Of a DNA stretch of 38,623 nt, positions 5,484 to 32,095 are shown one piece after another. The notes below the pieces were generated by a model. That model searched no databases, was not told the origin of the DNA, and saw only the letters and a program-made list of their open reading frames with translations. Every line of letters begins with the position of its first letter. Position 1 is the first letter of the stretch. The DNA comes from Bacillota bacterium (lineage in GTDB: Bacteria > Sysuimicrobiota > Sysuimicrobiia > Sysuimicrobiales > Segetimicrobiaceae): the NCBI GenBank assembly GCA_021324975.1, contig JAJPIA010000008.1, positions 1-38,623 on the forward strand. The letters are read 5' to 3'. Both the position numbers and the translations under genes were made by a program.

Positions 5484-6191
5484 ATGCGCGAAGTGATCTC
5501 CTGGGTTGCGATTCTCGCCGGCGGCCTGATCGTGACGATCAAGCTGTCCGCGTTCACCACCCTGTTTACGATTGCGTTTTCTTCGCTGCTGTCCCTCTGC
5601 GCGATCAGCCCGTGGCGGCCGCTGCGCTTCCTGGCCGTGTTGTACAACGACCTGATGCGCAGTATCCCGCTCCTCGCGCTGCTCATCTTCTTTTACTACG
5701 GGTTGGGCCGGCTCACGGCTCCACTCGGGATCTCGGCGTTCTGGCTGGCGGTGGCGGCGCTCGTCCTCAACGAATCCGCCTACCTGGCCGAGGTCTACCG
5801 GGGCACGCTGCTCTCGGTGCCGGCGACGCAATGGGAAGCCGCGGCCAGCCTGGGACTGGGGTGGGCCTCGACCGTGCGGCTCGTGATCCTTCCCCAGGTG
5901 TTCGTGGCGGGGGTCCCCAGCACGCTCAACAACACGATCGGCATCATCAAGAACAGTTCGCTCGCGTCCCTGGTCGCCGTCAACGAGGTGACGCTGACCG
6001 CGACCATTCTGGTTTCCGAGACCTTCCAGCCCATGCAGGTGTATCTCGTCCTGGCCGTCCTGTACCTCGCCCTGATCGTCCCAATCGGTCTCGTGTCGCG
6101 CCGGCTTGAGCGGCTGTTGGGGGCGGGCATCGGGATCGGGGATCTCCACGAGCCCGCCGAGCCTCGCCTGGCGGCGCTGCCCGAGGCCTGA
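5484..6191 (+). CDS. amino-acid-type ABC transporter permease 1 (HisM/GlnP family)
   Basis: A 235-residue inner-membrane permease of the polar amino acid family. Hydrophobic segments occur near residues 7-25, 28-45, 60-80, 90-105 and 195-215. The cytoplasmic EAA loop is 'EAAASLGLGWASTVRLVILPQ', where the ATPase docks. I chose the ATG at 5484 because the frame upstream is Arg/Ala-rich and unlike any permease, and the length then fits the 210-240 typical of the family. No strong ribosome site precedes it. It is the first gene of a set with a second permease (8-base gap) and an ATPase; the two permeases should form a heterodimer. The substrate cannot be read from the sequence. Confidence 0.88.
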   Translation: MREVISWVAILAGGLIVTIKLSAFTTLFTIAFSSLLSLCAISPWRPLRFLAVLYNDLMRSIPLLALLIFFYYGLGRLTAPLGISAFWLAVAALVLNESAYLAEVYRGTLLSVPATQWEAAASLGLGWASTVRLVILPQVFVAGVPSTLNNTIGIIKNSSLASLVAVNEVTLTATILVSETFQPMQVYLVLAVLYLALIVPIGLVSRRLERLLGAGIGIGDLHEPAEPRLAALPEA

Positions 6192-6199
6192 GGCGCGCC

Positions 6200-6844
6200 G
6201 TGTCGAGCCAGACGCTGGTGGATCTGCTGCGCGGCGGCGTCGTGACGCTGAAGATCGCCTGCGGCGCGTGGGTCGTGAGCGCGGTGCTGGGGCTGGCGCT
6301 CGCGGTGCTTCAGGATCTCGGGATCGCCCCGGTCAGGGCGGTGCAGTCGTCGCTCGTGATCGGGCTGCGGTCGGTGCCGCAGCTCGTGCTCCTCTATCTC
6401 TTGTATTTCGGGCTCGGCGCCGTCGGCATCCAGGTCAATTCGATCCTGGCCGCGATCCTCGCGCTGGGGATCGCGGACGCGGCGTTCAGCGCGGAGTACT
6501 ACCGGGCCGGGTTCATGACGGTGCCCCGGACACAGCGCGAGGCGGGATTCAGCCTTGGGCTGTCGCCCGTGGGTGTGATGATGCGGGTCGTCGTCCCGCA
6601 GACCATCCCGTTCGTGGTGCCGCCGCTCCTCAATTCCTTCGTGGGCCTGCTGAAGACCGCCACGCTCGCCGCCGCGGTTGGGGCGCCCGAGATTCTCTAT
6701 CGGGGACAGAACGCCATGAGCCGCACCGGCCAGCTCGTGCTCGTCATGACCGTGATCATCGTCCTGTATGTGGCGGCGACGATGCCGCTCACCCGCGCCG
6801 TGGCCGTCCTCGAGCGGCGCGTCCGGAGCCATGCGCACGGATAA
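6200..6844 (+). CDS. amino-acid-type ABC transporter permease 2 (HisQ/GlnP family)
   Basis: This 214-residue protein has membrane segments near residues 8-30, 45-70, 75-95 and 180-205. Its EAA loop 'REAGFSLGLSPVGVMMRVV' marks it as the second permease subunit. The GTG start (GTGTCGAGC) lies 8 bases after the stop of permease 1, and its 3' end overlaps the ATPase gene by 14 bases, so the three are probably translated together. 'SVPQLVLLYLLYFGLG' is typical of HisQ/GlnP-type subunits. The substrate path is formed with permease 1; ligand choice is set by the two binding proteins encoded downstream. Confidence 0.9.
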   Translation: MSSQTLVDLLRGGVVTLKIACGAWVVSAVLGLALAVLQDLGIAPVRAVQSSLVIGLRSVPQLVLLYLLYFGLGAVGIQVNSILAAILALGIADAAFSAEYYRAGFMTVPRTQREAGFSLGLSPVGVMMRVVVPQTIPFVVPPLLNSFVGLLKTATLAAAVGAPEILYRGQNAMSRTGQLVLVMTVIIVLYVAATMPLTRAVAVLERRVRSHAHG

Positions 6845-7625
6845 GACGATAGGCGGTCTCGACGCCGCCGCGGGCGCAGGACCGCTGCTCGAAGCCCGCG
6901 GCCTCCACAAGCGGTTCGGCCGGAGCGAGGTGCTGCACGGCGTCGACTTCAGCGTCCGGCGGGGCGAGAAGGTATGCATCGTCGGGCCGAGCGGGTCGGG
7001 GAAGACCACGCTGCTGCGGTGTCTCAACCTGCTCGTCGAGCCGACGTGCGGACAGCTGTTTTACAAGGGCGCGCACATCGGCGAATGGCCGGGGGGCGTC
7101 AAGGTCAACGTCGGCAGGTACCGCAGCCGGATCGGCATGGTGTTCCAGCACTTCGAGCTGTTCCCGCACCTGACGGCGCTGCGGAACATCACGCTGGGGC
7201 CGCGGCACGTGCTGCATGAGGAGAAGGCCGCGGCCGAGAAAAGGGCGATGGAGCTTCTGGCCCGCGTGGGCCTCGAACGGTTCGCCACGGCGCACCCCCG
7301 CACGCTGTCCGGCGGCCAGAAGCAGCGAGTGGCGATCGCCCGGGCCCTCGCGATGCGGCCCGACCTGATCCTCTTCGACGAGCCGACCTCCGCGCTGGAC
7401 GCGGAGATGGTGGACGAAGTGCTCAATCTGATGCGCAGGCTCGCCGAGGACGGCATGACGATGGTCATCGTGACCCACGAGCTGAGCTTCGCCCGCGATG
7501 TCGCGGACCGGGTCGTCGTCATGGAGCACGGCGCGGTAGTGGAAGAGGGCGCCGCCGAGACGATGTTCTCCGCGGCACGGTCCCAGCGGACCCGGGACAT
7601 CTTGAGAGTGGGAGCCAGGCGGTGA
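6831..7625 (+). CDS. amino-acid-type ABC transporter ATPase (HisP/GlnQ family)
   Basis: This 264-residue nucleotide-binding subunit has all motifs intact: Walker [10 protein letters not shown] (52-60), Q-loop Gln106, signature LSGGQKQR (159-166), Walker B LILFDEP (179-185), SALD D-loop and switch His216. Length and motifs match HisP/GlnQ, which power polar amino acid uptake as a homodimer on the cytoplasmic face. The ATG at 6831 is preferred because the upstream in-frame extension only shadows the permease gene. The 14-base overlap with permease 2 supports coupling. It is the only ABC ATPase in the window and is of the wrong subfamily for the dipeptide-type permeases further along. Confidence 0.95.
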
Positions 7626-7749: not shown

Positions 7750-8772
7750 ATGATCAAGCTGGGATATAAGGCGTCGGCGGAGCAGTTCGGTCCCAAGGAC
7801 CTGCTGGAATTCGCGGTATTCGCGGAGGAGTGCGGCTTCGACAGCGTGGCGGTCAGCGATCACTACCAGCCGTGGCGTCACCACGGCGGCCACGCGCCGT
7901 TCTGCTTCGCCTGGCTGGGCGCGGTCGGGGCGCGTACCCGCCGGATCGAAATGGGCACGAGCGTCGTCACCCCGAGTTTCCGCTACCACCCGGGAATCGT
8001 CGCGCAGGCGTCGGCGACGCTGGCCTGCCTGTTCCCGGGCCGCGTCTGGCTGGGCATCGGGACCGGCGAATCGATGAACGAGGTGCCGCTCGGCATCGCC
8101 TGGCCCGATCAGAAAGAGCGGTTCGCGCGGATAAAGGAGGCGGCCGAGCTCATGCGGCGCCTCTGGACCGAAGAGCGGGTGACGTACGGAGGCACCTACT
8201 ACCGGACCCACAACGCCACGATCTATGACCGGCCCGAGACCCCGGTGCCGCTCTACATCGCCGCCTCGGGGCCGGCCGCCGCCAAATTGGCCGGCCGCGT
8301 GGCCGACGGCTTCATCTGCACCAGCGGGAAAGGCATGGCGCTGTACGCAGACACGCTGCTGCCTGCCGTGAAGGAAACCGCGGAGAAGGCCGGGCGCAGT
8401 CTGTCGGGCATCGAGTTGACGATCGAGATGAAGGTGTCGTTCGACCGCGACCGGCAGCGGGCGCTGGAGGATACGCGCCACTGGGCGCAGCTCGCCCTTT
8501 CGCAGGAAGAGAAGGTCGGCGTCGAGGATCCGATCGAGATGGAGCGGAGGGCGGATGCGCTTCCGCTCGAGCGCGCCGCGAGCCGGTGGCTCGTGTCGAG
8601 CGATCCCGAGCAGCAGGTCGAGCAAATCATGCCGTATCTGAAGCTGGGGTTTACCCATCTGATCTTCCACGCGCCCGGCCCGGACCAGAAGCGGTTTCTC
8701 AAGCTCTACGGCGAGGAGGTGCTGCCGCGCCTCCGGAAGGCGGCCGCGCAGGGCCTGCCGGCCGCGCGCTGA
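7750..8772 (+). CDS. F420-dependent glucose-6-phosphate dehydrogenase-like LLM oxidoreductase
   Basis: This 340-residue TIM-barrel protein closely follows mycobacterial Fgd1 throughout, from '[10 protein letters not shown]' near the start to '[11 protein letters not shown]' near the end. The residues known in Fgd1 to act in catalysis or hold glucose-6-phosphate and F420 appear conserved: Asp37, His38, Trp42, Glu107, the Thr and Lys of 'CTSGKG', a later Lys ('QEEKVGV') and Arg ('SRWLV'). Fgd oxidises glucose-6-phosphate and makes reduced F420. Paralogues in this family act on other substrates, so the exact substrate is uncertain. The ATG at 7750 follows GAGGAGGG and matches the Fgd N-terminus. 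It lies between a transporter ATPase and a binding-protein gene, an unusual place that may tie F420H2 supply to catabolism of the imported compound. Confidence 0.85.
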
Positions 8773-8843: not shown

Positions 8844-9707
8844 ATGCGTCGACGAATCGGGTTTGCGATGGCGATTGCAGCGCTGCTGGCGTGGGGCGCG
8901 CTCGGCGGTCCCGGGTCGCGGGCCGCGGCGCAGCCGGCGGGCTACCATCTGGTGACCGCGGGCTACCTCACCGTCGCCACGCACGGCTCCCTGCCGCCGG
9001 AAATCGTGGTGGGCCCCGGCGACGAGCTCGGCGGCGTGGACGGGATGCTCTACAACGCCTTCGTGAAAGACCACGGGTTGAAGCTGAAGCTCTTCCAGAC
9101 GACGTTCGCCTCGATGATCCTGGCCGTCGAACAGGGCAAGGTGGACGCCGGCGAGGGCGTCTTCTATACGGCCGAGCGGGCGAAGCACGTGTACTATGCG
9201 TATCCGTTCTACGTCACCCACGCGTTCATCGCCACGCTGCCGTCATTCCAGTATACCGGTCCCGACAGCATGGCGGGGAAGAAGGTGGGAACCGTCATCG
9301 GCTACGTGTGGGCGCCGTATCTTCAAAAGTGGTCGCCCTCGGGCGTGGGGCTGTTCCCGGACGAAGTGACGGTGAGCCAGGCGCTGCTCAACGGCCAGGT
9401 CCAGGGCTATATCAACGGCTTCGAACGGCTGGGCCCCGGCAACACCATTCTCGAGGCGCCCTTTAACGGCAAAGCCGTGGCGCATCCGCTGCACCCGGGC
9501 GACTTCGGGTTCCCCGAGTCGGTGCTCTCGAACATCGCGTACAACATCGTCAACTGCAAGAACCCCGGCATGGCCGCCGCCTTGAACGAGGAGATCACAA
9601 AGCTGCACGCGAGCGGTGAATGGCAGAAGGGCCTCACGGACCTTCAATTGGGCCCGGCGGCGGATGCGCCGCTCAAAAACCCCACGCAGATCTGCAGCGG
9701 CGGGTAG
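8844..9707 (+). CDS. periplasmic amino-acid-type ABC substrate-binding protein 1 (family 3)
   Basis: This 287-residue protein has a Sec signal peptide (residues 1-29, cleavage near 'RAAA-Q') with no lipobox. The mature part is a family 3 binding protein: 'GYLTVATHGSLPPE' at the first strand, then 'FASMILAVEQGKVDAG' and 'AERAKHVYYAYPFYV'. The ATG follows AAGGAGGG. Only two cysteines are present (238 and 284), and both recur in the paralogue at 12145, which suggests a disulfide pinning the C-terminus. Both paralogues end in QICSGG. It should deliver ligand to the permease/ATPase complex encoded upstream. The ligand is unknown and may not be a standard amino acid, as the enzymes around it are not amino-acid enzymes. 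Confidence 0.88.
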   Translation: MRRRIGFAMAIAALLAWGALGGPGSRAAAQPAGYHLVTAGYLTVATHGSLPPEIVVGPGDELGGVDGMLYNAFVKDHGLKLKLFQTTFASMILAVEQGKVDAGEGVFYTAERAKHVYYAYPFYVTHAFIATLPSFQYTGPDSMAGKKVGTVIGYVWAPYLQKWSPSGVGLFPDEVTVSQALLNGQVQGYINGFERLGPGNTILEAPFNGKAVAHPLHPGDFGFPESVLSNIAYNIVNCKNPGMAAALNEEITKLHASGEWQKGLTDLQLGPAADAPLKNPTQICSGG

Positions 9708-9720
9708 AGGAGGGCGCGGC

Positions 9721-10185
9721 ATGGCTGAGAAGACCGGCGACGACCGCCGCGGCACGTCGATCGAACTGACGGTTTCGGGGGCCTCCGCCCGCGTGGCGCT
9801 GTGGGACGACTTGGCGCCCCAGACGGTGGCCGCCCTGCTCGAGTCGCTCCCGCTCGAGGCTCCGCTGCAGCACTGCAAGTGGTCCGGCAGCGCCTGCTTT
9901 GCCGACGTGTCGAAGGGCGCAATCGCCGGGGTGAGCGGTCTCGAGTCGCCGGTGGTGTCCATCTACCCGGGCGTGCTGGCGGTGCGGCCTCCCGCCCCGG
10001 GCGCGCCGGGGGCCGAGCTGCTGATCGCCTACGGCGACGCGGAGTACCGATGGCCGGACGGGCGCCGGCAGGTCACGCCGGTCGGCGAACTGGAGCCCGG
10101 GGCCGGGGCGGTGCTGGACGCGCTCGCGGCCACCGCGGCGAAGGGCCGAACGACGATCCGCCTGCGGCTGGCGGAGGGACGCTGA
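9721..10185 (+). CDS. DUF3830 family protein, copy 1 of 3
   Basis: This 154-residue protein has the DUF3830 pattern, a predicted cyclophilin-like beta-barrel: 'LAPQTVAALLESLPLEAPLQHCKWSG', then 'VVSIYPGVLAV' and 'ELLIAYGDAEYR'. The first 12 or so residues are an extra hydrophilic leader absent from copies 2 and 3. The ATG follows AGGAGGG 13 bases after the binding-protein stop, and its own stop overlaps the start of copy 2 (TGATG). The molecular role of DUF3830 is not established; genes of the family are often found with transport and cyclic-amide hydrolysis genes. Three consecutive divergent copies suggest a hetero-oligomer. No catalytic residue can be assigned from sequence alone. Confidence 0.82.
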   Translation: MAEKTGDDRRGTSIELTVSGASARVALWDDLAPQTVAALLESLPLEAPLQHCKWSGSACFADVSKGAIAGVSGLESPVVSIYPGVLAVRPPAPGAPGAELLIAYGDAEYRWPDGRRQVTPVGELEPGAGAVLDALAATAAKGRTTIRLRLAEGR

Positions 10186-10607
10186 TGCCCAAGCGGATTC
10201 GGCTCACGCTGGACGGTGTGGAGGCGGTCGCGCGGCTCAACGAGGAGGCCGCGCCCGAGACGGTCGCCAAGTTCTGGGCGGCGCTGCCGGTCGAGGAGAC
10301 GCTTCGGCACGTGCGGTGGGGCGGCGAGGCCGGGTACATCCTCATCCGGAAGCTCGCCGACAAGACCCAGCCGATCGAGAATCGGATCAGCATCTACCCC
10401 CCGGCGAGCATCGGGTTTCGTCCCGAACACGGCGAGGTGGCCTTTTCCTACGGGCAGGCGCAGGCGCGCGACCACGTGCGCCCCGCAACCTGGGCCTGCC
10501 ATCTCGCCACCATCGAGACCAACGTGGACGCGTTTTTCGCCAAGGTGCGGGCGACGCGCGCCGAAGGCGGGAAGCCGATCCGCCTGGCGCGCGAGGAGAG
10601 CCGATGA
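10185..10607 (+). CDS. DUF3830 family protein, copy 2 of 3
   Basis: This is the second DUF3830 protein, 140 residues. It shares the family backbone 'AAPETVAKFWAALPVEETLRH' and a histidine before the Trp-Gly-Gly turn ('RHVRWGG'). It also has 'RISIYPPASIGF' and 'EVAFSYGQA'. It differs from copies 1 and 3 by a Gly in place of the Ser in the W[SG]G turn and by a longer loop ('ADKTQPIEN'). The ATG overlaps the previous stop by one base, and the end overlaps copy 3 by four (ATGA), so the three are made together and probably in equal amounts. No signal peptide or membrane segment is present, so it should be cytosolic. Confidence 0.82.
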   Translation: MPKRIRLTLDGVEAVARLNEEAAPETVAKFWAALPVEETLRHVRWGGEAGYILIRKLADKTQPIENRISIYPPASIGFRPEHGEVAFSYGQAQARDHVRPATWACHLATIETNVDAFFAKVRATRAEGGKPIRLAREESR

Positions 10608-11014
10608 AGACGGTGCAGATCGAAGTGGACGGTGTCGTCGCCGAGGCGGAGCTTCTGGAAGACCGGGCGCCGCGGACCACCGCCGCGTTCTGGGACGCGC
10701 TCCCGATCACGACGGCATTGACGCACACCATCTGGTCCGGGCGCGCGTGCGGCTTCAGCGTCGAGCGGCTGCGGTCGGTCGACGGCCTGGAGCACGGCGT
10801 CTGCTCGATCTACCCCGGGGCGCTCGTTGCACGGCCCGACGCGGGCGAGGTGCTGCTCAGCTACGGCGCCGCGGAGTACCGGACCGTGCTCGGCGTGCAG
10901 TACGGCACGCGCATCGCGCGCCTCGTCCGGAATCAGGCGGCCATGCTCGCGGTGCTGGAACGGATGCACGACGAGGGCGATAAGACCATCACGATCAAGC
11001 GGGCCGGGGGTTAG
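10604..11014 (+). CDS. DUF3830 family protein, copy 3 of 3
   Basis: This is the third DUF3830 protein, 136 residues, starting with a strand typical of the family ('TVQIEVDGVVAEAEL'). It then has 'RAPRTTAAFWDALPITTALTH', 'IWSGRACGF', 'CSIYPGALVARP' and 'EVLLSYGAAEYR'. The His before the W-S-G turn is shared by all three copies. It begins in the ATGA overlap with copy 2 and ends 4 bases before the GTG of the LLM oxidoreductase. The copies are clearly diverged, so the triplication is old and each may have its own role, for example different faces of one complex. Confidence 0.82.
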   Translation: MKTVQIEVDGVVAEAELLEDRAPRTTAAFWDALPITTALTHTIWSGRACGFSVERLRSVDGLEHGVCSIYPGALVARPDAGEVLLSYGAAEYRTVLGVQYGTRIARLVRNQAAMLAVLERMHDEGDKTITIKRAGG

Positions 11015-11018
11015 GCCC

Positions 11019-12005
11019 GTGGCGCTGAAATTCAGCACGGGAGTACCGAACTGCCGGGAGGGACGGCTCAACCCGATTCAGTCGGTGGACGTCGCCTGGA
11101 TGCGCGATGTCGCGACGGCCGCGGAGTCCCTCGGTTTCTACTCGCTGTGGTTCAACGAGTTCATGCAGACGGAACCCCGGGTCGCGGAGCGCTTCGACAA
11201 CCCGCCGAACTACTACGACCCGCTGGTGACGATCGGCTATCTCGCGGCGCTGACCCGCCGCATCCGGTTCGTGACGAGCACCATCGTCCTGCCGCACCAT
11301 CACCCGATCCTGTTGAACCGGCAGGTTGCCACGCTGGACGCGCTGTCGAACGGCCGCATGACGCTGGGCATCGGCCTCGGGGGCGCGCTCGACGAGTACC
11401 GGCGCCAGCGTGGGGATCTCCGCGCGTACAACCGCGGTGAGATGATGGACGAGTTCGTCCAGGCGCTGCGCACGCTCTGGAGCGACCGCAAGGCGAGCTT
11501 CTCCGGGCGGTTCGCCAAGTTCGAGGACGTCGAGACCTCCCCCAAGCCGGTCCAGCGCCCGCTCCCGATCTTCATGGCCGGCGAGGCCGAGGGCGTCCTG
11601 CGGCGCGTCGCGCGGTGGGGCGAGGGCTGGATCGACAGCCACGTGCTGCCAGACCACCTGCGCGAGCTGATTGCCCAGATTCATCGCTATATGCTCGAGA
11701 CGCGGGGCCGGACCGCGTCCATGGAGATCGCGCGGCAGTTCTACATCAGCCTGGCCGATTCCGAGGAGGCCGCGCAGGCCAACTTCCGGGCGTCGCTGCC
11801 GAACATGAAGCCGGGGCAAGCGGCGCGGCGCCGCGAGGGCGAAGCCAATCTGATCGGCACGCCGGACCAGATCGCCAAGCGCCTCAAGGACTACACCGCG
11901 GCCGGCGTCACCGAGATCTGCGCCATCTTCTTCTCGCCGAACGCGGCCGGCGCGATCACGCAGATGGATCGGTTCGCCCGCGACGTGATCCCGGCCGTCG
12001 CCTAA
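11019..12005 (+). CDS. LLM-class (luciferase-like) flavin or F420 oxidoreductase
   Basis: This 328-residue TIM-barrel protein of the bacterial luciferase superfamily has 'AESLGFYSLWFNEFM' in the first barrel repeat, 'VTSTIVLPHHHPILLNRQVATLDALSNGRM' at the core, and 'GTPDQIAKRLKDYTAAGVTEI' near the C-terminus. It differs from the Fgd-like protein upstream, lacking the glucose-6-phosphate residues. The family uses FMNH2 or F420 in monooxygenation, dehydrogenation or reduction; which applies here cannot be read. The GTG start follows the third DUF3830 stop by 4 bases. Second in a repeated order of 'LLM enzyme, then binding protein', it probably acts on the imported compound or a product of it. 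Confidence 0.85.
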   Translation: MALKFSTGVPNCREGRLNPIQSVDVAWMRDVATAAESLGFYSLWFNEFMQTEPRVAERFDNPPNYYDPLVTIGYLAALTRRIRFVTSTIVLPHHHPILLNRQVATLDALSNGRMTLGIGLGGALDEYRRQRGDLRAYNRGEMMDEFVQALRTLWSDRKASFSGRFAKFEDVETSPKPVQRPLPIFMAGEAEGVLRRVARWGEGWIDSHVLPDHLRELIAQIHRYMLETRGRTASMEIARQFYISLADSEEAAQANFRASLPNMKPGQAARRREGEANLIGTPDQIAKRLKDYTAAGVTEICAIFFSPNAAGAITQMDRFARDVIPAVA

Positions 12006-12144: not shown

Positions 12145-12975
12145 ATGATGCGTCTGCGAGTCCTGGCCGTCGTGTTGTTGGCGAGCGCGCTCGGCGTTCT
12201 TCAGTCGCCGGCCCTGCCTCAGGGAACCGCCTTTCGGCTGGTGAACCCCGGCTATCTGACGGTCGGCACCTACGGCACCGTGCTGCCGGTCATCATCATC
12301 AGTCCTGGAGACACCATGGGCGGCCAGGAGGGCGCGCTGTTCAACGCGTTCGTCCGCGATCACTCGTTGAAGCTCAAGCTGTACCAGACCACCTTCTCGT
12401 CGATGATTCTCGCGGTGGAGCAGGGCAAGATCGACGCGGGGACATACGTCTTCTACACGCAGGAGCGCGCGAAGCACGTCTACTACACATATCCGTTCTT
12501 CGTCAGCCGCGCCGTCATCTACACGTTGAAGTCGTTCCCCTACACCGGCCCGGAGAGCATGAACGGACAGAAGGTGGGCACGGTGGTGGGGTTCGTGTGG
12601 GCGGCCCCTCTTCAGGCCTGGTCGCCGTCCGGCGCGGCGCTCTTCCCGGATCAGACGACGGTCGGGCAGGCCCTCTTGAACGGCCAGATCCAGGGATACG
12701 TCAACGGCAACATGGTCATCCACGCGCCGCCGCTGAGCGACTCCCCCAACGTCGTGGCGCACCCGCTGCACCCCGGCGACTTCACGATCCCCGAGTCGAT
12801 GCTCTCGAACAACGCCTACAACATCGTGGGGTGCGCCAACCGTGGCCTCGCCGCGGCGCTGGATCGAGAGCTGGCGACGATGCACTCGACCGGCGAGTGG
12901 CGGAAGGCGCTGGCGGCCAACGGCCTCGAGGACGTGCCGCTCAAGACGCCGGGCCAGATCTGCAGCGGCGGCTGA
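12145..12975 (+). CDS. periplasmic amino-acid-type ABC substrate-binding protein 2 (family 3)
   Basis: This 276-residue paralogue of the binding protein at 8844 shares 'GYLTVGTYGTVLPV', 'QTTFSSMILAVEQGKIDAG', the 'QERAKHVYYTYPFFV' block and the QICSGG ending. A Sec signal peptide occupies about residues 1-25, without a lipobox. Cysteines 230 and 273 match the pair in the paralogue and are the only ones. It has no permease or ATPase of its own nearby, so it probably shares the transporter at 5484-7625 and widens its ligand range. Start: ATG 12145 or the next codon, after AAGGGGG. It is separated from the LLM gene by 139 GC-rich bases with no recognised signal. Confidence 0.87.
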   Translation: MMRLRVLAVVLLASALGVLQSPALPQGTAFRLVNPGYLTVGTYGTVLPVIIISPGDTMGGQEGALFNAFVRDHSLKLKLYQTTFSSMILAVEQGKIDAGTYVFYTQERAKHVYYTYPFFVSRAVIYTLKSFPYTGPESMNGQKVGTVVGFVWAAPLQAWSPSGAALFPDQTTVGQALLNGQIQGYVNGNMVIHAPPLSDSPNVVAHPLHPGDFTIPESMLSNNAYNIVGCANRGLAAALDRELATMHSTGEWRKALAANGLEDVPLKTPGQICSGG

Positions 12976-13149: not shown

Positions 13150-14175
13150 ATGACGCTGGCGTTAGGCGTGTTGCTGAACGCCGAGTATCCGGTGACTGAG
13201 CTCGTTGCCCTCGCGCAGCTCAGCGAGGCCCTCGGGTACGACCAGGTTTGGTATACCGATATCCGTTTGTTTCGCGAGTGCTATCTTGGCCTCGCGGCGA
13301 TCGCGGCGAATACGCGGAAGATCCGCCTGGGCCCAGGAGTCACGGATCCGTACTCGCGGCATCCGGCAGTGACGGCGTCGACGATTTGCACCTTGGATGA
13401 GATGTGCGGCGGCCGGGCGTTGCTGGGTCTCGGCGTCGGGTCGACGGGCTTTCGAGAACTCGGCATTCGGGCGGAGCATCCGGTCGCGGCCCTGCGCGAG
13501 GCCGTCACGCTCATCCGCCGGCTCCTGCGAGGCGAGGAAGTAACGTTCCAAGGGAAGGTGATCTCCCTCGCCGGCGGCAGGCTGCAGTTCACGCCGGTCC
13601 GGGCCGAGATCCCGATCTATTTTGCAACGCAGGGCGTCCGCATCACGGAGCTGGCCGGCGAAGTCGCGGACGGCGTGATGATTGCCAATACGGCGATGCC
13701 CTCCGCGGTCGATTTCTATCTCGACTGCGTGAAGCGGGGTACGGAAAAGAGCCGGCGGCCCCTCCAGCAGGTCGATGTCGTCTTGCGCTTCGAGATGTGC
13801 ATCGCGGACAACGCCGCCGACGCCGAGGCAGTCATGCGCCGGCGGGTCGCGATGCGGATCGCCGCCGGCTACGGCCATTGGGACTACCTGGAACGCCTCG
13901 GCATCACGCTGCCCGAGGCGTTCGTCGAGATCGCGGCGCGGCGGGATCTGCGGGCCGCGGCGGACGCGGGCCATCTGCTGCCCCCCGAGGCAGTGACGCG
14001 TACGGTCCTAGCCGGCGATCCGGCGCAGGTCGCCGGGCAGCTGGCGTCCGCGATCCGGCCAGGAGTGTCGCGTCTGATCGTGCGACCCCACGCCGTGCCG
14101 GGCGGCGCGGTAGGCGACGTCCTCCGGCGATTTGTGACCGACGTCGTGCCGCGCGTGGGCGCGGCAACGCACTGA
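13150..14175 (+). CDS. LLM-class F420-dependent oxidoreductase, Mer-like
   Basis: This 341-residue luciferase-superfamily protein has 'AQLSEALGYDQVWYTDIRLFRE', 'RKIRLGPGVTDPYSRHPAVTASTICTLDEM' and 'LLGLGVGSTGFRELGI'. This arrangement is typical of the Mer-type F420 branch (methylenetetrahydromethanopterin reductase-like and relatives). Those relatives use F420 to reduce or oxidise varied small molecules; the substrate is unknown. The ATG has a purine-rich site (GAGAGAGG) upstream. It is the first gene of a long plus-strand run (tautomerase, cupin, binding protein, isochorismatase-like, permeases, AraC) and lies directly after the palindromic element, so it is probably promoter-proximal. Confidence 0.85.
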   Translation: MTLALGVLLNAEYPVTELVALAQLSEALGYDQVWYTDIRLFRECYLGLAAIAANTRKIRLGPGVTDPYSRHPAVTASTICTLDEMCGGRALLGLGVGSTGFRELGIRAEHPVAALREAVTLIRRLLRGEEVTFQGKVISLAGGRLQFTPVRAEIPIYFATQGVRITELAGEVADGVMIANTAMPSAVDFYLDCVKRGTEKSRRPLQQVDVVLRFEMCIADNAADAEAVMRRRVAMRIAAGYGHWDYLERLGITLPEAFVEIAARRDLRAAADAGHLLPPEAVTRTVLAGDPAQVAGQLASAIRPGVSRLIVRPHAVPGGAVGDVLRRFVTDVVPRVGAATH

Positions 14176-16531: not shown

Positions 16532-17206
16532 ATGCTGACGTTTCGGGGACGCGAAATTCCGGAGTCGTTGTCGGAGATCGTCAATCCGCGGCACACCGTC
16601 GTGATCGTGCATGACATGCAAAAGGACAATACCGCGGCGGGTTGGGCGTACGACAAGGTTGGCCGGCGCATCGACGTGAGCAAGATCCTGCCGGTGCTCG
16701 TCCGGTTTCTCGGCGACGCGCGGCGGCATGGCGTTCGGGTGATGTACACGCAGTACACGAACCTGCCGGACTTCGGCAGCTACACGGACATGCGCATCCG
16801 GTCTGACTACAAGCGGCTGACGGATCCCGGGCAGCGGACGGCGTTGGAAGGCCTGGTCGAAGACACGCCGGGGTGGGCCACTATCGACGAGCTGAAGCCC
16901 CAGCCTGGCGAGGTTATTATCCGAAAATTCCGCGTCGACGCGTTCATCGGCACGCCGCTCGAGTTGTTTCTGCGCCTCAACCGCGTCCGAACCCTGGTCC
17001 ACACCGGAATCGCGACGGAGGTCGGCATCCTGCCCACGGCCTGGCACGCGTTGAATGCCGGGTTTTTCCCGGTCGTGCCGGAGGACTGCGTCGGGCCGAT
17101 GGAGCCGCAGTATCACGATGATGCGATGCGGTTCCTGCGCCGGCTGGCGATTCCGGTCCGTTCGTCCGACGTCGTCGAGACGTGGGAAGGCTCGGCGCGC
17201 CGATGA
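16532..17206 (+). CDS. isochorismatase-fold hydrolase with the catalytic Cys replaced by Gly
   Basis: This 224-residue protein has the isochorismatase-like fold: 'VVIVHDMQKDN' with Asp28, 'IIRKFRVDAFIGTPLEL' with Lys132, and 'HTGIATEVGILPTAWHAL'. In amidase-type members the last block carries a nucleophilic Cys; here that position is Gly165. True isochorismatases (EntB, PhzD) and the YecD group also lack this Cys, so the protein may cleave a vinyl ether or act by another route instead of hydrolysing an amide. The ATG lies 13 bases after the binding-protein stop, and the gene sits inside a transport operon, which suggests the substrate arrives by that transporter. Confidence 0.88.
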   Translation: MLTFRGREIPESLSEIVNPRHTVVIVHDMQKDNTAAGWAYDKVGRRIDVSKILPVLVRFLGDARRHGVRVMYTQYTNLPDFGSYTDMRIRSDYKRLTDPGQRTALEGLVEDTPGWATIDELKPQPGEVIIRKFRVDAFIGTPLELFLRLNRVRTLVHTGIATEVGILPTAWHALNAGFFPVVPEDCVGPMEPQYHDDAMRFLRRLAIPVRSSDVVETWEGSARR

Positions 17207-30778: not shown

Positions 30779-32095
30779 ATGCATAGGGCCCGAACGCCGG
30801 ATCCGGAGACTCTGCTGACGGCTCCCAACAGCGTCGCGGAGCTGGTTGAGGTCGTCGCCGACCTCGTGGGAAGCCCCGTCACGGTCGAGGATCACGACTT
30901 CCGGCTCCTTGCCTACAGCCGTCAGGCCGGCCCCGTCGATCGCGCGCGCCGCGACACGATCTTCAACAAGGCCGTGCCGTCGGAGATTGCCCGATGGCTG
31001 CGACGCAGCGGCGTCATGCAGCGCATCTACCGCAACCATCTGCCGGTGCGCGTGCCGTCGTGCCCGCGCCTGGGGTTGAGCCGGCGCACGGCGATTGCCG
31101 TCCGGGCCGGCGATCGGATCCTGGGACACATTTGGGTCATGGAGCGGCGGCGACGCTCGACGCGTGCCGTGGCGCGGATCTTGCCTCGGGCCGCGACCAT
31201 TGCGGCCGCGCTGCTGCTGCGCCAGGAGGCCGAGCGCGCGGTCCAGAGCCGTCTGATCGACGAGTTTCTCATGGATCTCCTGGACGGCCGTGTGGTCAAC
31301 GAGGTGGCGGCCCGCCGCCGGGCCGAGGCGTTGCAGATGGACTTGCCGGTACCCTTCGCCGTGCTGGTCATCGACATCGACGCATTCGAGACGCACATCG
31401 CCGGCCGGAGCGAATCGTGGGTGCAGGCCCTGAAGACCAATCTACTGGCCACGATCCGCGCGACCGCGGCGCGGGCCGGCGAACGCCCCCTGGCGTTGTG
31501 GCGAGGCGACAGCGTGGTCATGGTCCTCGGCGGGGCGGCGAGCGTCGAGGGCGCACCGTCGTTGGCCGAACGGGTGCGGACGCTCGCGGATGCGCTGCAC
31601 GCGCAACTCCCGCGCCGGTTCTCGAACGTCTCGTTCTCCATTGGAGCGAGCCGGGTGCTGCGAGAGCTGGAACACCTGCCGCACGCATACGCGCAGGCCA
31701 TCGATGCCGCGCGGATCGGCGGCGCCTTCCTCGGGCGGCGGCTCCCGGTGCACTACGACGATCTGGGTATCTACCGGTTGCTGCACGCCGTGCGTGACGA
31801 GATCCTCACGAACGGGCACGCCAGCACGCACTTGGAGCGCCTGCAGGCCTACGACGGGTCCCACAAAACCTCCCTGGTCGACACCCTTGAAGCCTACCTC
31901 GACGCGTTTGGCAACGTGCACGAGGTGGCGCGCAAGCTCCACGTGCACTCGAATACGGTGCGCTATCGGGTCCGCCAGATCCGGGAAGTCGCCGCTCTGG
32001 ACTTGCGCGACCCCGGCCTGCGCCTCGTCATCCATTTGGAGCTAAAACTGCGCCGCGTGTCGGTCTCCGCGCGCCAGCATCCTCCGCGCCATTAG
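30779..32095 (+). CDS. PucR/CdaR-family transcriptional regulator
   Basis: This 438-residue regulator has an N-terminal sensor region ('LTAPNSVAELVEVVADLVGSPVTVEDHDFRLLAYS', GAF-like) at about 15-150. Residues about 155-300 hold a middle GGDEF-like segment ('VLVIDIDAFETH', 'VSFSIGASRVL'). A C-terminal PucR helix-turn-helix follows at about 380-425 ('LVDTLEAYLDAFGNVHEVARKLHVHSNTVRYRV'). The ATG at 30779 is preferred because the longer frame upstream only shadows the previous gene. It lies 133 bases upstream of the M19 gene in the same direction, so it probably senses a metabolite of the cluster at 32229-38623. Confidence 0.9.
   Translation: MHRARTPDPETLLTAPNSVAELVEVVADLVGSPVTVEDHDFRLLAYSRQAGPVDRARRDTIFNKAVPSEIARWLRRSGVMQRIYRNHLPVRVPSCPRLGLSRRTAIAVRAGDRILGHIWVMERRRRSTRAVARILPRAATIAAALLLRQEAERAVQSRLIDEFLMDLLDGRVVNEVAARRRAEALQMDLPVPFAVLVIDIDAFETHIAGRSESWVQALKTNLLATIRATAARAGERPLALWRGDSVVMVLGGAASVEGAPSLAERVRTLADALHAQLPRRFSNVSFSIGASRVLRELEHLPHAYAQAIDAARIGGAFLGRRLPVHYDDLGIYRLLHAVRDEILTNGHASTHLERLQAYDGSHKTSLVDTLEAYLDAFGNVHEVARKLHVHSNTVRYRVRQIREVAALDLRDPGLRLVIHLELKLRRVSVSARQHPPRH

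Follow-up and report, generated by a model that had tools for sequence, protein, structure and literature searches.

Why should a bacterium carry three copies of a DUF3830 gene (Pfam PF12903) side by side? Genes of this family are usually single, as a preliminary description of the present DNA had stated, and each of 12 annotated plasmid loci from Alphaproteobacteria and haloarchaea was found to contain just one DUF3830 gene. The stretch analysed here, hereafter called the window (38,623 nucleotides), instead encodes three members in tandem. Their products may act as separate proteins, or as the subunits of one complex, and a complex may or may not be an enzyme. Gene structure, conservation among relatives, gene neighbourhood and predicted fold were used to weigh these readings.

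Gene structure and conservation of the trio

The first gene (g1, product W1) occupies positions 9721..10185 and encodes 154 amino acids, the second (g2, W2) positions 10185..10607 and 140 amino acids, and the third (g3, W3) positions 10604..11014 and 136 amino acids. All three lie on the forward strand and start with ATG; g1 and g2 end with TGA and g3 with TAG. PF12903 scores of 35.6, 56.1 and 46.6 bits, respectively, exceed the Pfam gathering cut-off of 26 bits. In the Cyclophil_like family (PF04126, cut-off 27 bits), g2 was the sole match of the trio, at 26.5 bits and thus just under the cut-off. The overlap between g1 and g2 is 1 nt (TGATG) and that between g2 and g3 is 4 nt (ATGA). The coordinates and scores thereby bear out the three tandem DUF3830 genes, overlapping by one to four bases, of the preliminary description. 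Judging from these overlaps, the three products would be made in equal amounts.

Pairwise identity among the three proteins is 32-40%; two-sequence BLASTP comparisons gave 38%, 32% and 36%, with E-values of 7e-26 to 1e-14, so that their paralogy is far above chance and their duplication is not recent. These identities agree with the earlier view that the copies are diverged outside a few motifs, and rule out recent near-identical duplicates. The motifs H-x-x-W-[SG]-G, SIYP and YG are present in all three proteins as had been described, except that the histidine lies three residues ahead of the tryptophan and not just before it.

A sister genome (locus L042, G002:C94) contains the same trio with the gene order and both overlaps kept, and the same importer block adjoins it as in the window. 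The orthologues are 88% (g1), 76% (g2) and 81% (g3) identical, with dN/dS values of 0.12, 0.30 and 0.23, respectively. The conservation of order and overlaps, together with these low ratios, indicates that purifying selection maintains all three window genes. A pseudogene or an annotation artefact is ruled out by the dN/dS range of 0.12-0.30 and the conserved overlaps. A broad scan of genome contigs returned L042 and one Devosia locus only.

Three-member sets and fused genes among relatives

DUF3830 genes were detected in 10 of the 43 genomes of the phylum, and in none of 50 genomes across two other phyla. Related bacteria possess up to four three-member sets per genome. In the genome of the window (G000), 13 places score over the DUF3830 cut-off; they can be sorted into four three-member sets plus a lone gene. 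One of these sets is split between the end of contig C71 (L016) and the start of C77 (L017), which overlap by 57 identical bases inside an A gene; the contig break probably interrupts a gene pair that is intact in reality. Three kinds of set were recognized among the relatives. The window type was seen only in G000 and G002. Type I occurs in the order 1-2-3 in six genomes of the family and in the order 1-3-2 in G017, which belongs to another family. In the ABC type, A and B are separate genes or one fused gene, and C follows directly or lies some kb off.

Subunits A (93/90), B (97/88) and C (100/99) each form a clade in the DUF3830 tree, and the diverged copies of the window trio form one of their own (98/90). 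Moving single window members beside A, B or C lowered the likelihood, with AU p values of 0.02-0.26 across the seven of nine pairings that were tested, such that only some placements were rejected. An independent triplication is hence the favoured origin of the window trio, and direct orthology of its copies with A, B and C is not favoured; more generally, the tree suggests that the three-member sets arose independently.

At eight ABC-type loci a single fused gene encodes A and B together, as a protein of about 290-300 residues whose two DUF3830 domains are joined by a variable, Ala/Pro/Arg-rich linker. The fusion halves group with the unfused A and B pair genes, in clades A and B respectively. 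Paralogues that had already diverged have therefore been joined, a classical sign of association. At five of these eight loci, C begins no more than a few bases from where the fusion ends. Of the sequence evidence, this Rosetta-stone fusion makes the strongest case for a putative hetero-oligomer. Since the fusions occur in paralogous ABC-type sets, and the window trio is a clade of its own, the argument carries over to the window by analogy only. A second and more diverged A-B fusion type was observed at L033:6280-7182 and L037:19017-19898, beside other gene families and with no adjoining C gene; the neighbours of the L037 fusion are a PLP-dependent D-cysteine desulfhydrase-like gene and an RraA-like gene.

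Gene numbers are also informative. A and B are equally numerous in every genome, with 14 of each in total. The A:B:C ratio is 2:2:2 in four genomes, 3:3:1 in G007 and 3:3:2 in G009, and a distance of 2-12 kb separates some C genes from their A-B pair. C being rarer than A and B in G007 and G009, a strict 1:1:1 composition is not universal.

These observations bear on the idea that the products of the trio are enzymes or binding proteins that each form a homo-oligomer on their own, duplicated in tandem and diverged for different substrates or for different steps of one pathway, without associating. The trio does look like a triplication of its own lineage, DUF3830 members elsewhere work as singles, and C can be unlinked from A-B. 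However, the fusion of A with B in eight loci, the equal A and B counts, the order and overlaps conserved in several lineages and the retention of all three genes speak against such independence, which we regard as rather unlikely. The hetero-oligomer proposed in the preliminary description gains indirect support from the recurring three-member sets, from the A-B fusions with C behind them and from the equal A and B numbers; taking all heteromeric readings together, a hetero-oligomer of some kind is very probable.

Gene neighbourhood and candidate substrates

The trio is embedded in a block of forward-strand import and oxidoreductase genes. Two importer permeases (5484-6191 and 6200-6844) and an ATPase (6831-7625), assigned from their ORFs and clusters, lie upstream, the ATPase being closest to polar amino-acid transporters. 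They are followed by a luciferase-like monooxygenase (LLM) oxidoreductase of the F420-dependent glucose-6-phosphate dehydrogenase type (7750..8772; TIGR03554, 486 bits, cut-off 420) and by a polar-amino-acid-type solute-binding protein (8844..9707; SBP_bac_3, 1e-15) that ends 13 nt upstream of g1. The TIGR03554 equivalog gene thus immediately precedes the solute-binding protein and the trio. Only 4 nt after g3 begins an LLM-class F420-type oxidoreductase (11019..12005; Bac_luciferase, 1e-51; TIGR03619, 205.7 bits, over the cut-off), and further downstream are a second SBP_bac_3 solute-binding protein (12145..12975; Pfam, 4e-13), a third LLM-class oxidoreductase (13150..14175; Bac_luciferase, 4e-59) and an isochorismatase-fold hydrolase (16532..17206; PF00857, 5e-33; cluster c4) of a kind that recurs near DUF3830 sets. 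The two related solute-binding proteins flank the trio and the LLM gene behind it, and there is one permease/ATPase set, upstream. Elsewhere in the window, positions 30779-32095 encode a PucR-type regulator (HTH_30, purine-catabolism regulator family), which fits the catabolism of nitrogen compounds.

Similar surroundings are found in the related genomes. LLM oxidoreductases adjoin both window-type loci, all six type I loci of the family (directly) and three of the six main fusion-type loci, and both window-type sets have importer as well as LLM genes beside them. The ABC importers near the sets of the family are of three kinds (polar amino-acid, peptide and NMT1/SsuC-like), and other recurrent neighbours are isochorismatase-fold hydrolases and OCD/mu-crystallin genes. 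The presence of different importers beside the same kind of set suggests that one enzyme module has been adapted to various nitrogen compounds.

In the 12 plasmid loci, single DUF3830 genes mostly adjoin genes for dihydropyrimidinase and other amidohydrolases, a hydantoin-type racemase, an M20-type/Zn-dependent hydrolase or acetamidase; hydantoinase A/B and cyclic amidohydrolases are also seen beside single genes, and in two plasmid loci urate-degradation genes are. A Thalassospira plasmid locus is the exception to this hydrolase/urate neighbourhood. The haloarchaeal single genes (L046, L047, L051, L054 and L056) are located between genes for an amidohydrolase, a Zn-dependent/M20 hydrolase and either a D-2-hydroxyacid dehydrogenase or urate degradation. 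It is possible that DUF3830 members carry out one step in the degradation of allantoin/ureidoglycolate.

Such neighbours evoke a further heteromeric system. The PxpB and PxpC subunits of the prokaryotic 5-oxoprolinase have cyclophilin-like folds. They are two different but related proteins that are required together in the metabolism of a ring amide (PMC13274462). By comparison with them, the trio might form a hetero-oligomer that hydrolyses or phosphorylates a lactam with an amidohydrolase-type partner. The single DUF3830 genes beside cyclic amidohydrolases and hydantoinase A/B, and the known two-protein Pxp partners, are compatible with this scheme, but no such structure is among the 50 Foldseek matches listed for g3, and the proteins have no Pfam match to such domains; we consider it highly improbable.

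Predicted fold, conserved residues and the proposed complex

The AF2 model of g3, built from eight aligned sequences, reached a pLDDT of 92.6 and a pTM of 0.87 and adopts a cyclophilin-like barrel, as had been anticipated. Among 50 listed Foldseek matches the best was 3KOP from Arthrobacter sp. FB24 (E 1e-9, TM 0.86), a solved member of DUF3830, the family to which the Pfam scores also assign the window proteins. The Pictet-Spenglerases KslB and McbB came next, followed by TM1367 and AF2241. The model of g2 was of low confidence (pLDDT 61.6) and was left out of the fold comparison. At the sequence level, a profile of the trio matched 2NNZ, 3KOP, TM1367 and KslB, but McbB was not among its matches.

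Each of these relatives also differs from the window proteins. The 3KOP entry consists of one protein in six identical chains, whereas the window encodes three diverged paralogues, all lacking the Asp of the PGD motif. KslB and McbB share their barrel with g3 (Foldseek E 1e-8 and 3e-7; 1e-8 to 1e-6 for the Pictet-Spenglerase matches), and the weak profile match of KslB to the trio (E 0.002) spans the AP, LP, H and SG motifs. Nevertheless, identity is only about 20%, the chains of KslB and McbB are some 280-315 residues long with parts outside the barrel, as against 136-154 residues and the barrel only, and the window genes are located in catabolic/import clusters and not in alkaloid clusters. 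TM1367 (1ZX8/2KA0) and AF2241 (2NNZ) are Cyclophil_like (PF04126) proteins of unknown function that have the same fold and give significant profile matches.

Two residues are nearly invariant in the domains compared: Glu61 (g3 numbering) occurs in all 73 and Tyr85 in 71 of them. Others vary with the subunit. Glu61 is kept in W1, W2 and W3, and Asn62, which usually follows it in other members, in W2 only. At the position of the His that precedes the W-[SG]-G turn, the 14 B domains all have Asn and the five C(a) domains all have Gln, and an acidic residue directly after the turn is found in W2 but is absent from W1 and W3. The PGD Asp, kept in most subfamilies, is lost from all three window copies, and the canonical pocket may therefore be absent from them. 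As conserved residues are lost subunit by subunit, the subunits are not equivalent. The conserved positions are assumed to line a pocket. Given that the full set of pocket residues is kept in some subunits only, catalysis is probably the task of some barrels, and a structural or gating role that of others.

The missing PGD Asp could also indicate a heteromeric carrier, storage or chaperone-like complex without catalytic activity, which would pass an imported compound to an LLM oxidoreductase; the LLM genes that directly adjoin the window-type and type I sets are in keeping with such a handover. Yet the near-universal retention of Glu61 and Tyr85, and the fact that the closest matches in fold whose chemistry is known are enzymes, make a purely passive complex improbable.

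The best explanation, which we think fairly probable, is a heteromeric enzyme with unequal subunits that acts on an imported nitrogen compound. The physical assembly, stoichiometry, enzymatic role and substrate class that we infer for the window trio would then be the following. The products of g1, g2 and g3 would be three specialized subunits, translated together, whose cyclophilin-like barrels would assemble into one cytoplasmic hetero-oligomer, possibly as A-B-C or its dimer; the preliminary description had suggested that a pseudo-threefold arrangement is possible. This complex would be a small-molecule enzyme that takes over after uptake by the ABC importer and works beside the LLM oxidoreductases, and its substrate an imported nitrogen-containing compound that is probably cyclic.

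A search of literature mostly from non-subscription journals retrieved no paper naming DUF3830 or PF12903 and none on cyclophilin-like proteins with hydantoinase; as the literature searched never mentions the family, its three-member arrangement appears to be undescribed there. DUF3830 has no known function, and the recurring three-member sets and the natural A-B fusion make the family testable. The A-B fusion protein together with C offers a ready construct for structural work, and the importers and LLM oxidoreductases found with the sets reduce the range of substrates to be searched. A bolder reading, to which we give a small chance, is that a family that is single elsewhere became an obligate three-paralogue complex more than once in one bacterial family (window, ABC and type I), with active-site residues unequally shared, and so represents heteromeric enzymes of a new class, which use imine-type chemistry in catabolism. 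If the sets did arise independently, they would be a clear-cut example of the repeated change of a barrel protein into a three-part hetero-oligomer.
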